This document shows, one piece after another, positions 2,172 to 36,809 of a stretch of 41,982 nucleotides of DNA. Source of the DNA: a virus; the IMG/VR virus record IMGVR_UViG_3300010430_000148, positions 1 through 41,982 of that record; one strand, written 5' to 3'. The position numbers and the translations under genes were made by a program. Below the pieces are notes generated by a model. That model saw only the letters and a list, made by a program, of their open reading frames with translations, was not told the DNA's origin and searched no databases. Each line of letters opens with the position of its first letter. Positions within the stretch are counted from its first letter, which is position 1.

Positions 2172-5100
2172 TTAGTTTGTGCGGTCAGGTGGTGGGCTCA
2201 GTAAGCCGCGCCGTTCTAGTTCATCTTCTGGCAGACTGCGCATTACGCCGAGCATGAGTTCATTCATTGATGCTTGAATGCTATCTATGCGCTGTCGCTT
2301 TTCGTCCGCGCTTAGATTTCTGTCTGTCTGCACTTGGCGCATGGTGCGCCTCATACCCGCAAGTTCTGTGGACATGCGTTCAAGAACGGGGGCAACGCCA
2401 CGCAGCCACAGCTCATTCTCGGTGAATGTGGCGTCTGGTCTGAGCCCCTGTTGCATAAGCCGGAACGTTGTCGCTTGCTCACGGGCTGAAGAAAGCAATT
2501 CGTAGAAGTCTGACTCATACTGGGTTCCCCGCAGCGGGCTTTCCCGCATGAACGAGCGCATGAGAGGCATCTCATCAAGACGCGCCGTGGGGTCCGAGCC
2601 TGAATCTTCATCAAGCGATCTGGTAAGCCAGTCAGCGGCACTCAGACCGTAAACACCAAGTGTTCCTGTGTACCCGGTCAATAGGTGCTCAACCTGTATC
2701 GGGCTAATCTCCACCCCCGTTTCTTCCCGCATAGCGCGGGCGAGCTGCACGATTGTATCACTCGTGTAAGGGCGATATTGGTCTGACGGACGAACACTTT
2801 GGAGGTCTGCCGGTACAATAGGATTTCCAGAGAAGTTCCTGTTGGTCGCGATGTCTTGAACAGGCTGCGCAAATTGGGGAACAGGGTTCATGGCAAATGT
2901 CTGGCTCAGGCTCCGCATCCAGAAATCAGCAAACGACCGCCCGTGACGTGTTTCAATAGATCGTGAAAGGCGCTCTGCTTGGCTGGCGAAAATTGTCCCG
3001 TATTCAAATGCCTTGGGAATTAGATAAGGTTCATATTCACCAGCGTCATTATAGTGCGGCACAATAAAATGCTGATCTCGCACCCAGTCCGGCAATGCCC
3101 AATAATTCGGGTCATCCCGGTTTGCCTGATACGCGGCCATCGCCGGAACCGTCTGTGACAGGAACGAGCGGGTAAACATGCGGGCCGGGTTTTCCGCACC
3201 AAGCCGCGCCATGCGGTCGAGCCCCTGAATCCGAGCGTTCATAAACGGCACCATCGCCGTCATCGCTTTCATGGTCGGGCTTGTGCCGCGCACTGAAAAG
3301 TCTGTCGCCACATCGCGCGCACCCATCGCGGCAGCACGAGCATTTACCCCGCCCGCGCGCTGGATTTGAAACTCTCTCATCCGTGACGCCTGCTCTGTGA
3401 CCGACGCAGCGGATTCAATTCCGCGCCCTATACCGGCGACAGAATCTTCGAAGAAGCGTCCGATCTTGGCGGGCGTGTCAAGAACCTGGCGCTCATAGTT
3501 TAGCCCAAAGCGGCGGTATAGGTCAGACGCGCCATCGGCAAGGTGGAATTCATTTTGGTAGAATGAACCAAACCCTGCCCCATTCGCCATCGCCGTCCAA
3601 TAGTCATCGTCTCGACGCACCCGTGTTACAACGCCGCGCGCAGTATCAACGAAGGGGATGAATGTCCCGCCTGATTGAATGAACGCGGTTTCAGTATCAC
3701 GCATCATATTTCGCATGATAAAGTCCGGTGACAGCGTGACGCCGCCGCGCAACAACTGAGCGGGCGCTGATAGATACCGAACAACAGGGCTCAATGCCTG
3801 CGGGCTGACATGCTGGATTGCTTTGTAAAGCATGGGGTCTTGAATTTCGTACAGAATACGCTGACCGTCTCGGAACACAGCATCGACTGGGTTCCCGTTG
3901 ACTCGGATATTCTCAAGCCGTCTTCCTGTGAATGCTTGAACGAGCCCGTCATCACTCAGCCCTAGATCCGCAAGCGCCTCACGAACGCGGGCGTCCGCAG
4001 CGAAGACTTCCTCCGGCATGTTTGTGATGCGGCGCGCAATCCCCTCGACACCGAGATTGTCAATCATGTCATAGACTTGCAGCTTAGCGTGGTTCTCAAG
4101 GCTGGCGTTTGTCCACATAATCGCATTGCGATTGATGTTCGACATGATCTCATTGACGTTTCGGTCAGAACCACGAAGCCGGAGAAGCGGGTTGCTACCA
4201 CTACCGCCAACGCCGCCCTCGTCCATAACACGGTAGAATGGGACATAGCTTTGCCCGGCCTCGGTCAGAGACGCCAGCGTTTCCTCGCTGATAAGCCCGG
4301 ACTGCTGCGCGAACGTCAGATTTCGTTGATTGAACTCCTGATAGCGATTGAACGCATCTTCAATGGCCGGATTCAGGCGCGAGCGCCCTACCATCCATTC
4401 GACTTGCTCGGGCGTAAACGGTGTTTCAAGCCCGCGAGCGGATAATTCCTGCGCGCGTCGGCCAGCAAAGTACCTCATGGCCTCCGACATATCGTCGCCA
4501 ACGTCACGGAATACAGAAACAAGCCCCTCGCCAGAGAACCCGATGTCCCCAGCTTCTGTCCATGTCAGTGTCCCTCGACGTTGCATCGCTTCAATGGCTC
4601 CGGGCGCGCCTCGCAACAGGCGCAAATCACGATACGGGCTCACATCGGGGGGTATAACCCCGCGCTCACGCGCTACTTCCTCAATGCGGCGAACAGGATC
4701 AAACCCGTCAACCACCTCTGTTCTGAACCGCTCCACAGTATTCCGCACTGCACCACCGTATTCGGCGCGGTAGGCGCTTTCGGCAATTTCGATATTTGTG
4801 GGGACGCCGATCTTCTCGTCCACAGCGGCGCGAAGGGCATCATCAAGTGAGCTGTTCGCCGTTTCTGCGGCTCTCGTCCGCGCTGCGGCCCGTACAGGCT
4901 CAGGAAGGCCGTCCGTGGCCTCATCCACTGCCCGCTCAATATTACGCACTGTGCGGGCTCTGGTGGCCCCTGAGACGGTAGGGGCTGCGGAGGGGGCAGC
5001 CATACCTGTAACCGACGCGGCAGAGAATAGAATGCTGTCAATGTCGTCTCTGAGCCGGTCGGCCTGAGATGATGTTGCGCCGAGTTCGCGGGATGTCTGG

Positions 5101-5615
5101 ACAATGGCCTCAACACCAGCCCTGATCGGGACATCAACAGAGCGAATTGCAAAATCAACCCCAGCGGTCCCTACCCGCGTTACCCCCTCAAGAAGATCAC
5201 GGGGCGTTGTCGTTATCCCGACTTGCCCTACGTCTTCAGGAGCATTGAATATCCCATAGTCCCGCACCTGATCCAGAGATTCCGGGTTCAGGCCAAGGGG
5301 CTCTCTTGGGTTTGCAGCGTCCACGCCCCCACGAACAGCAGCGCCAAAGATCCGAGAAAATGGCGTCCCGCCCTCTCCGGGGCTTTGTTCCCGTGCTAGT
5401 GTTTCCTGTTGCCGCCTGGTGGCTTCTTCCTGAGTGATAAACTCCGGGTTTTCGCTCGTGAACACAGGGGTGCCCGGGGCAAGCATGGCCTCGCCAACCG
5501 GAACGACGGGGAGGTCTGGTGAACTCGCGGGCTGTTCTGTGCTGCCGAACAAATTGTCAAACGTTGAGGCTGTAGTCGCCTCTGGCTGGCCAAAGAGTTC
5601 TTCGAATGAGGCCAT
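2172..5615 (-). CDS. Large internal virion (ejection) protein, LPD38-like C-terminus
   Basis: At 1147 residues this is the second largest protein here. The N-terminal 100 residues are Pro/Ser/Thr/Glu-rich with two FDNLFG/FEELFG-like short motifs. The rest is mostly helical. The last ~150 residues, with LDEMPLMRSFMRESPLRGTQY followed by a long charged helix, resemble the LPD38 domain of large phage polyvalent proteins. No lysozyme or transglycosylase motif is evident. Size and position, last of four genes between the nozzle and the fibre, match T7 gp16, the large ejected core protein. I infer a role in genome delivery. The ATG overlaps the upstream stop as TAATG. Confidence 0.65.
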   Translation of the reverse strand: MASFEELFGQPEATTASTFDNLFGSTEQPASSPDLPVVPVGEAMLAPGTPVFTSENPEFITQEEATRRQQETLAREQSPGEGGTPFSRIFGAAVRGGVDAANPREPLGLNPESLDQVRDYGIFNAPEDVGQVGITTTPRDLLEGVTRVGTAGVDFAIRSVDVPIRAGVEAIVQTSRELGATSSQADRLRDDIDSILFSAASVTGMAAPSAAPTVSGATRARTVRNIERAVDEATDGLPEPVRAAARTRAAETANSSLDDALRAAVDEKIGVPTNIEIAESAYRAEYGGAVRNTVERFRTEVVDGFDPVRRIEEVARERGVIPPDVSPYRDLRLLRGAPGAIEAMQRRGTLTWTEAGDIGFSGEGLVSVFRDVGDDMSEAMRYFAGRRAQELSARGLETPFTPEQVEWMVGRSRLNPAIEDAFNRYQEFNQRNLTFAQQSGLISEETLASLTEAGQSYVPFYRVMDEGGVGGSGSNPLLRLRGSDRNVNEIMSNINRNAIMWTNASLENHAKLQVYDMIDNLGVEGIARRITNMPEEVFAADARVREALADLGLSDDGLVQAFTGRRLENIRVNGNPVDAVFRDGQRILYEIQDPMLYKAIQHVSPQALSPVVRYLSAPAQLLRGGVTLSPDFIMRNMMRDTETAFIQSGGTFIPFVDTARGVVTRVRRDDDYWTAMANGAGFGSFYQNEFHLADGASDLYRRFGLNYERQVLDTPAKIGRFFEDSVAGIGRGIESAASVTEQASRMREFQIQRAGGVNARAAAMGARDVATDFSVRGTSPTMKAMTAMVPFMNARIQGLDRMARLGAENPARMFTRSFLSQTVPAMAAYQANRDDPNYWALPDWVRDQHFIVPHYNDAGEYEPYLIPKAFEYGTIFASQAERLSRSIETRHGRSFADFWMRSLSQTFAMNPVPQFAQPVQDIATNRNFSGNPIVPADLQSVRPSDQYRPYTSDTIVQLARAMREETGVEISPIQVEHLLTGYTGTLGVYGLSAADWLTRSLDEDSGSDPTARLDEMPLMRSFMRESPLRGTQYESDFYELLSSAREQATTFRLMQQGLRPDATFTENELWLRGVAPVLERMSTELAGMRRTMRQVQTDRNLSADEKRQRIDSIQASMNELMLGVMRSLPEDELERRGLLSPPPDRTN

Positions 5616-7332: not shown

Positions 7333-7884
7333 CTAGTTCTTCCTTTTCCGCGACTGGTAGAAGGCGGCGCTATTGCCCGGCCCATATAGGTCATGCAGTG
7401 TTCCAACCCTTCTCATAATTCCGTATTTGCATAGGTTCTCAAAGAATCTCTTGGTTTCCGGCTCACGCTCATCGGCGTATTCCATAACCGTAAAGTCATC
7501 ACGCATTTCATTTATGAAGTTTGCCACACTCTCAATGCGGTTCCGTGGGCTTGACCACTTGAACCAGAGAATATCAGCGATCCATACAATGCGTGTCCCA
7601 AGCGGATTCATCGCAGTTAGTGACCCAATAGGAATACGCCCATCGGGGGTATCGGCAAGAAGCGTCAGCGCCCAATCGCGCGGGGCCAGAACCTCGGCAA
7701 GGATTGACGTAAAATCATCCCGGCCCATCTGGTGATCCTTGAACACCGGATTGAGCGTGTCGAGATCCCCGAACCGATACGCCGCCCAGTAATACTTGAT
7801 GTCTTCATCAGAGATACCGCGAAACTCTGTGTACCGCCCTTTGAGTAATCTAGCTAGACGATGCGACGAACCTGATCCCGACAT
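7333..7884 (-). CDS. GNAT-fold-like virion-associated protein, gp13-position
   Basis: This 183-residue protein resembles proteins found after the tail-nozzle gene in T7-like and roseophage-like podoviruses. Its middle (IPIGSL...WIADILWF) and C-terminal half (SSPRNRIESV, YGIMRRVGTLHDLYGPG) look like a GNAT-type acyltransferase fold of the T7 gp13/DUF2833 kind. No activity is known for that group, and I see no clear acetyl-CoA loop. The frame is open for another 79 codons upstream, but those lie inside the nozzle gene and read as low-complexity Ser/Lys/Gln. I therefore start at ATG 7884, leaving a 35-base overlap. Fold assignment is tentative. Confidence 0.55.
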   Translation of the reverse strand: MSGSGSSHRLARLLKGRYTEFRGISDEDIKYYWAAYRFGDLDTLNPVFKDHQMGRDDFTSILAEVLAPRDWALTLLADTPDGRIPIGSLTAMNPLGTRIVWIADILWFKWSSPRNRIESVANFINEMRDDFTVMEYADEREPETKRFFENLCKYGIMRRVGTLHDLYGPGNSAAFYQSRKRKN

Positions 7885-9448
7885 CGTTGATGCGGAACGT
7901 GCTTGTGCCGCTGATTTCCGTTTTGATTTGGATTTCGTTTGACCCTGACGGGGCTGCGAAGACTTCTCTTGTAACGCGGTCTTCCCCGAGGACGCCGAAG
8001 AAGACTTCACCGCCGAAGTAGTTTGTTCCTCCGAAGTGCGCTGCTCCGCTTGGGGCTGCGATGTCAATTGAGATGGGGGCATCAAACACCTGTTCGCCTG
8101 AGTGAAGGAAAGTAATGTCAACCGTAGCGGCTTCTGACTTGTGGTATTTCAGCCAGCCCTCGATCTGATATGAGCCAGCGTCAAGGGGCATGGAATAGAG
8201 CTTGGATGTTCTCGACGCTGTAATGTCAGCGGTCCCGCCATCACCAGCGGTGCCAGAGCCTTCCAGCAGATAGATGTTCCCTGTGGCGTCACCGAAATAA
8301 ACACCCTCTGAATCATCCGTCTGAGCCGGGGAAAGCATGGGCATCTGCGCCGTCCAGTTAAACCCGGACGAATGGTTCGTCGTGTACTTGATCCACCCGC
8401 TTTTACCGGACTCGCGCATCGGCTTGTAGTAGGCGTAGAGTTCGCCCTGATCGTCGTGCATGACATAGACGCGCTGGAGCTGTGAGTTGAACAGCACTAC
8501 CCATCCTGACTTGCCAACAATCTGGTCTTGAATAGGCACAGACGGGTCGTAAGGCTCGACATCGCCATAGGCGTTTGTGGCTCTCAGACTTTCAATCCGG
8601 CCACGGCGTCCATACCAAATGTCATCCCCGACAAAGGCCATAGACTCATCACCAGAAGCAGCAGACCCAGGATAAAGCTCGCCGATCGCGAAGTCCGTCG
8701 CATCGCCGCCTGACAGGTTAAAGATGCTGCCGTCTTCAGTCGAGAATGTCGTAAACCCAAACGCCTCAACAAGCCCATTAATAGGCTTTAGATCGGGCGA
8801 CAACAGAAAGAATGGATCTTCAGCAGATAGCGCGCTAGAGGGACGATCCGAAACGGACAGAACTTCGTTATCGCTCCGCGTTGAGCCCACAATCATGTGA
8901 GGGGTCGCTGTAGAATTTGAAATGACGTTCGCAAAGAACGCGCGCTCGTTTGAGACAAATCCATACTTGGCAATAAACGTGCCGCCAAGATTGTGGGTCA
9001 TATTCGAAAGCGTTGTACCATCCCACGTTTTGACGCCCTCAACCAAGCCAAGGTCCGTGATGATAACCAGATCATCCAGCGCCCAATACTGCGTGAAGGG
9101 GTTTCCCCTCAGTCTTGCACTCGCATTGACGGTGACGCCCGTGTCGGTAAACCCGTTCTCGGTTCCATCCCATTCATAGACTTTTGTTCCAGACTGAACG
9201 AGCGTGCTTTTCGTGCCGTCAGCCTTGATGAGTTGCGCGAACCCATTTATCCGCCCCCCGTTGGGGGCCATACCGACAAGATCAAAAGCCTCTCTGCGGC
9301 GAAAATCGTTATTCTCAAGGTCAAGTCGGAAGTTCTCACCAGCAACGCACTCTGTTTCGTCAATGGTATCTTCGCCAGCGCGCGTATGCAGCCCGCCGCC
9401 AAACTTGAGAACAATATCTAACTGCTGTTCAGGGACCGCTCTGGGCAT
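7850..9448 (-). CDS. Tail nozzle / tail tubular protein B-like structural protein
   Basis: This 532-residue protein is almost wholly beta-rich, with recurring short strands and Gly/Asp turns such as GTKVYEWDG, VKTWDGTTLSN, GSIFNLSGGD and EGVYFGDATGNIYLLEG. This repeat rhythm resembles a beta-propeller, as in the P22 gp10 and T7 gp12 class of tail-hub or nozzle proteins. It follows the adaptor gene with a three-base gap and precedes the T7-like core genes. It would form the distal tail tube through which DNA passes. The C-terminal ~100 residues look like a separate beta-sandwich. Family named by architecture and position. Confidence 0.7.
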   Translation of the reverse strand: MPRAVPEQQLDIVLKFGGGLHTRAGEDTIDETECVAGENFRLDLENNDFRRREAFDLVGMAPNGGRINGFAQLIKADGTKSTLVQSGTKVYEWDGTENGFTDTGVTVNASARLRGNPFTQYWALDDLVIITDLGLVEGVKTWDGTTLSNMTHNLGGTFIAKYGFVSNERAFFANVISNSTATPHMIVGSTRSDNEVLSVSDRPSSALSAEDPFFLLSPDLKPINGLVEAFGFTTFSTEDGSIFNLSGGDATDFAIGELYPGSAASGDESMAFVGDDIWYGRRGRIESLRATNAYGDVEPYDPSVPIQDQIVGKSGWVVLFNSQLQRVYVMHDDQGELYAYYKPMRESGKSGWIKYTTNHSSGFNWTAQMPMLSPAQTDDSEGVYFGDATGNIYLLEGSGTAGDGGTADITASRTSKLYSMPLDAGSYQIEGWLKYHKSEAATVDITFLHSGEQVFDAPISIDIAAPSGAAHFGGTNYFGGEVFFGVLGEDRVTREVFAAPSGSNEIQIKTEISGTSTFRINDVGIRFVASSS

Positions 9449-35955: not shown

Positions 35956-36705
35956 GTGCAGAAGCTCAAGGTCCTTGATTTGTTTAGCGGTATCGGCGGG
36001 TTCTCAAAGGGCCTTGAAGACAGCGGCTATTTCGAGACGGTCGCCTTCTGCGAGAAGGATAACTTTCGCCAGAGCGTTCTCCGGCACCACTGGCCTGACA
36101 CCCCAATCTATCACGATATTCGAGAGGTGAGCGGTGAAGAAATTGGACACGCAGACACAATGTGCGGCGGGTTCCCCTGCCAAGATGTCTCGGTTGCGGG
36201 ATTTCGCGGAGGGATTAGACCATCTACTCGCAGCGGACTTTGGGCAGAGTTCTGCCGAATCCTTCGCAACGTGGGACCAGGAACGGTTGTATTGGAAAAC
36301 GTCACAGGGCTCCTTTCTCTCGGGCTTGGACGAGTTCTCGGAGACCTGGCCTCGTGCGGGTATGATGCGGAGTGGTTCTGTTTTCCTGCGGCGTCAGTCG
36401 GTGCGCCACACTCCCGCGACCGCGTTTGGATTGTTGCCTACGCCCGCGAGAAGGGATGGGAAGGACCTGTCGTCAACTGGCAAACCTTTCCCAGCCCAAG
36501 TCTCCAGGAAGTCACCAAGTTTGGCAACGCTCGCGCAATCTGCGGGCATGAGTGGGCAAAACATTTCCCGTCTGTATCAATGGGCAATGGGGTACCCGGT
36601 CGACTGGTGCGAGATACCATCAGCGCATGTGGCGACAGCGTTATCCCAGTCATTCCTAGACTCATCGGACACGCAATCGCAAGAGCAGAAGGGCTGACGG
36701 CATGA
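35956..36705 (+). CDS. C5-cytosine DNA methyltransferase
   Basis: This 249-residue enzyme transfers a methyl group from S-adenosylmethionine to cytosine C5. Motif I is DLFSGIGG (8-15), motif IV is GGFPCQ (71-76) with catalytic C75, motif VI is ENV (114-116), and motif VIII is HSRDR (152-156). The end has GDSVIPVIPRLIGHAI in place of the usual motif IX-X GN.V.P. The target-recognition region is short, as in compact phage enzymes. No restriction partner is visible, so protection from host restriction is the likely role. The GTG start is in frame with the SSB stop. From 36134 on, another gene is read in a second frame. Confidence 0.9.
   Translation: MQKLKVLDLFSGIGGFSKGLEDSGYFETVAFCEKDNFRQSVLRHHWPDTPIYHDIREVSGEEIGHADTMCGGFPCQDVSVAGFRGGIRPSTRSGLWAEFCRILRNVGPGTVVLENVTGLLSLGLGRVLGDLASCGYDAEWFCFPAASVGAPHSRDRVWIVAYAREKGWEGPVVNWQTFPSPSLQEVTKFGNARAICGHEWAKHFPSVSMGNGVPGRLVRDTISACGDSVIPVIPRLIGHAIARAEGLTA
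36134..36697 (+). CDS. Nested gene in the methyltransferase, methyltransferase-associated family
   Basis: This 187-residue frame lies wholly inside the methyltransferase gene, shifted by one base. It reads like a phage protein family that I recall beside or fused to C5 methyltransferases: WKTSQGSF (54-61), FSETWPRAGMMRSGSVF (68-84), LLPTPARRDGK (100-110) and, near the end, WAMGYPVDW (150-158, cf. WLMGFP..W). Matching four motifs in order is hard to explain as a chance reading of the other frame. The GTG 36134 has AGAGG eight bases upstream. The function of the family is unknown to me; it may adjust target choice or activity of the enzyme. Confidence 0.75.
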   Translation: MKKLDTQTQCAAGSPAKMSRLRDFAEGLDHLLAADFGQSSAESFATWDQERLYWKTSQGSFLSGLDEFSETWPRAGMMRSGSVFLRRQSVRHTPATAFGLLPTPARRDGKDLSSTGKPFPAQVSRKSPSLATLAQSAGMSGQNISRLYQWAMGYPVDWCEIPSAHVATALSQSFLDSSDTQSQEQKG

Positions 36706-36809
36706 AGGATGAATTTACCAACGAGTCTGCCGCGTTTGTCTGCGGGTGCTTCTGTGGTGTTCTCGGCACATTCTCGGTTCTCATTATTGTTTCATGGGTG
36801 ATTGCATGA
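36702..36809 (+). CDS. 35-residue membrane microprotein
   Basis: ATG 36702 overlaps the methyltransferase stop as ATGA, and TGA 36807 overlaps the next start the same way. After a polar start (MKDEFTNES) the rest is one Cys/Gly/Val-rich membrane helix (AAFVCGCFCGVLGTFSVLII). Function unknown. Confidence 0.55.
   Translation: MKDEFTNESAAFVCGCFCGVLGTFSVLIIVSWVIA

Follow-up and report, generated by a model that had tools for sequence, protein, structure and literature searches.

Can a single stretch of phage DNA encode, in two of its reading frames, both chains of one DNA methyltransferase? This question is raised by a viral sequence of 41,982 nt (IMG/VR record IMGVR_UViG_3300010430_000148, positions 1 to 41,982), the whole of which is referred to below as the window, and in which the gene of a C5-cytosine methyltransferase (alpha) holds a second open reading frame (ORF), beta, in its +1 frame. 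A preliminary description of this DNA had reported the two nested ORFs, the 8 bases that separate their stop codons, and an AGAGG belonging to the nested GTG, and the ORF coordinates and translations agree with it on each of these points. The features of the locus are:

35956-36705, + strand: alpha, the C5-cytosine methyltransferase catalytic chain, 249 aa, GTG start (PF00145, phrog_363, AF2/Foldseek).
36123-36127, + strand: AGAGG, a Shine-Dalgarno-like site for beta, 6 bases before its GTG (sequence, anti-SD duplex).
36128-36130, + strand: TGA closing the upstream part of the beta frame; the first start after it is the GTG at 36134.
36134-36697, + strand: beta, the nested protein in the +1 frame relative to alpha, 187 aa, GTG start (phrog_1008, synonymous constraint on alpha).
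36584-36607 (approximate), + strand: motif IX of beta, WAMGYPVDW, on DNA shared with the conserved N-G-V-P-G-R-L of alpha (translation).
36619-36648 (approximate), + strand: motif X of alpha, ACGDSVIPVI (conservation of alpha).

An out-of-frame HNH element has been reported in gp65 of ShiLan, a methylase gene (PMC11855218); an insertion of this type was considered and rejected, as that element sits in a different methylase gene. Directly downstream of the locus, a 35-aa ORF (36702-36809) overlaps the alpha stop through an ATGA and has a hydrophobic C-terminus; it probably encodes a membrane peptide, and a PHROG search with it returned zero matches. Elsewhere in the window (2172-5615, - strand), a protein of 1147 aa shows partial matches to very long phage proteins, and one of the PHROGs that it matches is named DNA methyltransferase (phrog_15406, 6e-15).

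Typical C5 methyltransferases carry motifs I-VIII, followed by a target-recognition region and then by motifs IX and X. Alpha belongs to this family (PF00145), with the catalytic-domain motifs I (DLFSGIGG), IV (GGFPCQ, including its PCQ), VI (ENV) and VIII (HSRDRVWIV) all present. These four motifs had already been named in the preliminary description, while the end that it had likened to motifs IX-X proved to contain motif X only (GDSVIP); when frame 1 was scanned, motif IX was absent from alpha of the window. The profile searches that had been proposed for both products gave matches of alpha to PF00145 (1.2e-40) and phrog_363 (1.9e-67), and of beta to phrog_1008 (1e-17). Motif X of the window copy has GD where its relatives have a nearly invariant GN, and this copy may therefore be weakened or altered in activity. 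With the AF2 model of alpha (pLDDT 83.6, pTM 0.81), the top Foldseek hits were all M.HhaI (E ~1e-14), and residues 182-209 are disordered in the model at the place where the small domain should be; alpha is predicted from this model to be an M.HhaI-like catalytic domain without the small domain.

We consider it highly probable that the locus encodes a two-subunit C5-cytosine methyltransferase, in which the target-recognition side and motif IX come from an internally started beta. Alpha would provide the large domain, which binds SAM, performs catalysis and contains motifs I-VIII and X; beta, for which a Shine-Dalgarno site of its own would direct initiation at GTG 36134, would carry the region that is placed after motif VIII in single-chain relatives. 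The two chains would then assemble into one active enzyme, which may methylate the phage DNA and so probably protect it from restriction by the host.

What beta may contribute can be read from its relatives. It contains the motifs KTSQ, SETWPRAGM, LLPTP and the motif IX-like MGYPVDW, and tblastn found relatives of it in 187 phage records. The preliminary description had asked whether the second frame has homologues of its own, and phages, viral contigs and bacterial genomes all contain such homologues; zero matches were obtained to Pfam or NCBIfam families, or, in a PDB search, to the sequences of solved structures. Among the relatives are single-chain enzymes. In two of them, L016 and L017, motif VIII of frame 1 is followed directly by the PTP region and EWMMGYPAGW, and these by motif X; in a third (L007), frame 1 contains the motif IX part of beta. 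The HMM of beta finds L016, L017 and L007 at 5e-8, 5e-11 and 9e-7, respectively, MGYPVDW of beta aligns with their in-frame motif IX, and a protected +1 frame is absent in L016 and L017 by the shuffle test described below. Because these single-chain enzymes carry that part in frame, the C-terminal half of beta appears to be the equivalent of what in a normal enzyme is the target-recognition side plus motif IX, and it is best explained as supplying a putative target-recognition region with PTP motifs together with motif IX. Modelled by itself, beta gave an AF2 structure of low quality (pLDDT 62.6, pTM 0.28), too poor for a fold search, which may be taken as weak evidence that this subunit depends on its partner.

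The N-terminal half of beta (SPAKTS, KTSQ, SETWPRSGM) is another matter, as no counterpart of it was found in single-chain methyltransferases, and the nested ORFs of the type found in pneumococcal phage MM1 (see below) lack motif IX. Both observations would fit a beta that acts separately, as a regulator, an inhibitor or an anti-restriction partner, and is encoded within a methyltransferase gene by chance. We regard this explanation as improbable, since the C-terminal half of beta occurs fused in frame at the correct place in single-chain enzymes, and since alpha lacks exactly that part. The associated protein or control module of the preliminary description thus stands as a conserved second protein, but it is better described as a missing part of the enzyme, namely its target-recognition region and motif IX.

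As to how the beta chain of such a two-subunit enzyme would be made, the anti-SD pairing upstream of beta amounts to -10.1 kcal/mol in the window, with a median of -7.1 over homologous loci, and strong Shine-Dalgarno sites stand ahead of internal starts in many loci, e.g. AAGGAGG before ATG in L036. The start of beta is ambiguous in some loci, and many relatives start upstream of the point that is occupied by the TGA at 36128-36130 in the window (M-T-M/T...). Alternatively, a programmed +1 frameshift downstream of motif VIII might join the two frames into one chain with motif IX. This is conceivable from mycobacteriophage Miramae (L009), where alpha terminates past motif VIII and motifs IX and X follow in the continuing +1 ORF, so that a shift would yield a full enzyme. 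In the window, however, the product of such a shift would lose motif X, which lies in alpha; moreover, the constraint on the +1 frame begins near 36121, long before motif VIII is reached, which a frameshift leaves unexplained, and beta starts in many loci are preceded by the good Shine-Dalgarno sites mentioned above. For these reasons internal initiation at GTG 36134 is favoured as the probable origin of beta, and a frameshift seems to us very improbable.

All of this presupposes that the second frame is translated into a protein under selection, and its length and conservation were therefore compared with those expected from synonymous shuffles, which preserve the protein and its codon usage. 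In the window, the +1 run is 176 codons long versus 91 expected, and none of 100 shuffles reaches 176, while the +2 run of 61 codons is as expected (73 codons). Among 80 IMG/VR viral loci that were picked on the methyltransferase frame alone, in every one the C-terminal part of alpha is overlapped by a +1 ORF of 100 codons or more, and the median +1 run is 185 codons versus 88 expected; the +1 run reaches p<=0.05 in 70 of them, and the +2 run in one. The excess in the +1 frame persists at 32-41% GC, as in L097 (37% GC), with 417 codons versus 115 expected. Motif IX was found in frame 1 of none of these 80 loci; the +1 ORF has MG[FWYLVMI][PE] in 72, and in the other eight a degenerate version occupies the corresponding position.

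As loci selected on frame 1 are biased towards relatives of the window, a second sample was fetched on DNA patterns for motif IV (GGFPCQ) alone, in two codon flavours, which gave 199 usable unique viral enzymes. In this unselected sample, p<=0.05 was reached by the +1 run in 158 of the 199 and by the +2 run in nine, the latter being the chance level. Motif IX occurs in the +1 frame only in 140 of the 199 enzymes with a loose pattern and in 132 with a strict one, and in both frames in none; as controls, the strict pattern was met in 8 of 1990 shuffles and in the +2 frame of none of the 199.

The preliminary description had further proposed that the overlap is dual coding with both products constrained, and this is borne out by the synonymous variation of alpha, which collapses over the overlap. 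For 79 alpha genes of less than 80% identity, the synonymous codon agreement has a z-score of 2.7 before the overlap, little different from expectation, and of 86.9, a large excess, inside it. As such z-scores ignore relatedness, the inside value is properly judged against the upstream part of these genes. The constraint sets in at 36121-36134 and climbs over 36121-36151, at the beginning of beta; it is highest at SETWPRSGM, LLPTP and motif IX of beta, and fades past the last of these. Similarly, the pair SG4/Spikelee differs by 17 synonymous changes of frame 1 in 50 codons outside the overlap and by 21 in 202 codons inside it; the other pairs were too close, and E. coli PT62 with Salmonella phage S9-5 offered too little non-overlap.

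How tightly the two frames interlock can be seen at motif IX, where the same bases encode MGYPVDW in beta and NGVPGRL in alpha. Gly212 of alpha is GGG in 70 of the 79 genes, and residue 211 of alpha may be D, N, H or Y, yet its codon is nearly always xAT in these relatives. Since the residue varies and xAT stays, alpha appears to drift on the base that is a wobble position of beta, while the ATG of beta is kept.

That alpha alone is made and the +1 similarity is a mere shadow of conserved alpha motifs and codon bias, as might be argued from the parts of beta that overlie motifs IV, VI and VIII of alpha, where some similarity is forced, and from the missing Pfam or NCBIfam family, is hardly credible in view of the +1 runs far above the synonymous shuffles when +2 runs are not, the very strong constraint at motif IX of beta where alpha is otherwise variable, the fixed AT of the beta Met under a drifting alpha residue 211, the motif IX found in frame in single-chain enzymes, and several public annotations that name beta as the gene instead of alpha. 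On these comparative grounds, we take it as confirmed that the second frame is a real coding sequence.

The arrangement is widespread. In the first 12 phage loci inspected, from phages of Mycobacterium, Gordonia, Vibrio, Sulfitobacter, Stenotrophomonas, Microbacterium, Salmonella and other hosts, the relative of beta always lies in the +1 frame and overlaps the methyltransferase gene. When loci were selected on beta, alpha was found in the same +1 overlap in all 80 viral loci and in all 24 bacterial or archaeal loci. One pair (L197) lies in a contig whose bin is assigned to an archaeon (Candidatus Alkanophagales); provided that this assignment is correct, the layout may extend beyond bacteria and bacterial viruses. 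A plasmid search gave merely six matches, all of them weak.

Annotation mostly records one of the two frames, and sometimes beta rather than alpha. At L215:829-1374, L216:763-1491, L005:1800-2498 and L012:1827-2507, beta is annotated as a hypothetical protein and alpha is missed, and in an E. coli prophage RefSeq records alpha alone. The nested layout appears to be the majority form among the sampled viral enzymes and seems to be under-appreciated; in the literature searched, which covered few subscription journals, we found neither a general survey of such overlaps nor a statement that the layout dominates. On balance, we lean towards the view that overlap-coded two-chain C5 methyltransferases prevail in prokaryotic viruses (about 80% of the GGFPCQ-type enzymes have a protected +1 ORF), that their target-recognition and catalytic halves evolve under a constraint imposed jointly by the two frames, and that they fall into at least two classes, one with motif IX in the nested frame and one of the MM1 type. 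If this is true, many methyltransferase genes of viruses and prophages are misannotated, with alpha or beta missed or beta called hypothetical; alpha expressed alone would yield an inactive enzyme, and predictions of specificity from one chain would fail. The loci would also constitute a natural data set, comprising hundreds of cases at 32-68% GC, of two probably interacting proteins encoded in the same DNA, in which overprinting, co-evolution and the switching of target specificity would be directly testable.

Several methyltransferases that are divided between two chains, or overlapped by a second ORF, are available for comparison. The small subunit of M.EcoHK31I is reportedly encoded in an alternative frame within the gene of the large subunit, and M.EaeI is said to be of the same kind; the known examples of this kind are bacterial restriction-modification enzymes (YGGCCR). 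In M.EcoHK31I, motifs I-VIII and X are located in the larger subunit and motif IX alone in the small one, and the predicted target-recognition domain was placed in the large subunit (PMC3404938). Likened by motif layout, our pair is divided in the same way: alpha has motifs I-VIII and X and lacks motif IX, which is located in beta. The beta ORF also lies inside the alpha gene in another frame, as is said of M.EcoHK31I. Unlike M.EcoHK31I, the pair belongs to a phage recombination operon, with Erf, SSB and one weak HNH match as its neighbours and no evident cognate restriction enzyme among them, and the fusions found here point to target recognition in beta, not in the large subunit. Judged by its motifs, the locus very likely joins this kind as a two-chain methyltransferase of a phage.

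Total overlap of C5 methyltransferase ORFs has also been described in S. thermophilus phages of the 5093 group, with pneumococcal phage MM1 and Tn5252 cited (PMC5601072). As in the window, two proteins are encoded there by the same DNA in different frames: ORF14 of MM1 lies in the +1 frame inside ORF13 (L187:7480-8637 and 7631-8056), and the overlap locus of 5093 is at L188:6067-7026. Unlike in the window, however, alpha of MM1 and 5093 is a complete single chain with a motif IX of its own (RLQGFPDW), and the nested +1 ORF, unlike beta, lacks motif IX and ends in an element resembling SLSDILEExVDExYFLS; supplying motif IX can therefore not be the only role of the nested protein everywhere. This MM1-type class recurs in most of the 15 loci of the unselected sample that have motif IX in frame 1. 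By eye, the terminal element resembles the segment after motif VIII in M.HhaI, a likeness that a search did not confirm, as phmmer with the C-terminus of the MM1 nested ORF against the PDB gave zero matches.

M.AquI, in which motifs IX and X are located in the small subunit (PMC3404938), is likewise a C5 methyltransferase in two chains. It differs from the locus of the window, where motif X (GDSVIP) stays in alpha and does not accompany motif IX in the small chain. The split of M.AquI is resembled by gp79/gp78 of mycobacteriophage Miramae (L009:1802-2344 and 2313-2894), in which the first chain stops after motif VIII and the +1 ORF has motifs IX and X, and which is possibly an intermediate or a frameshift case.
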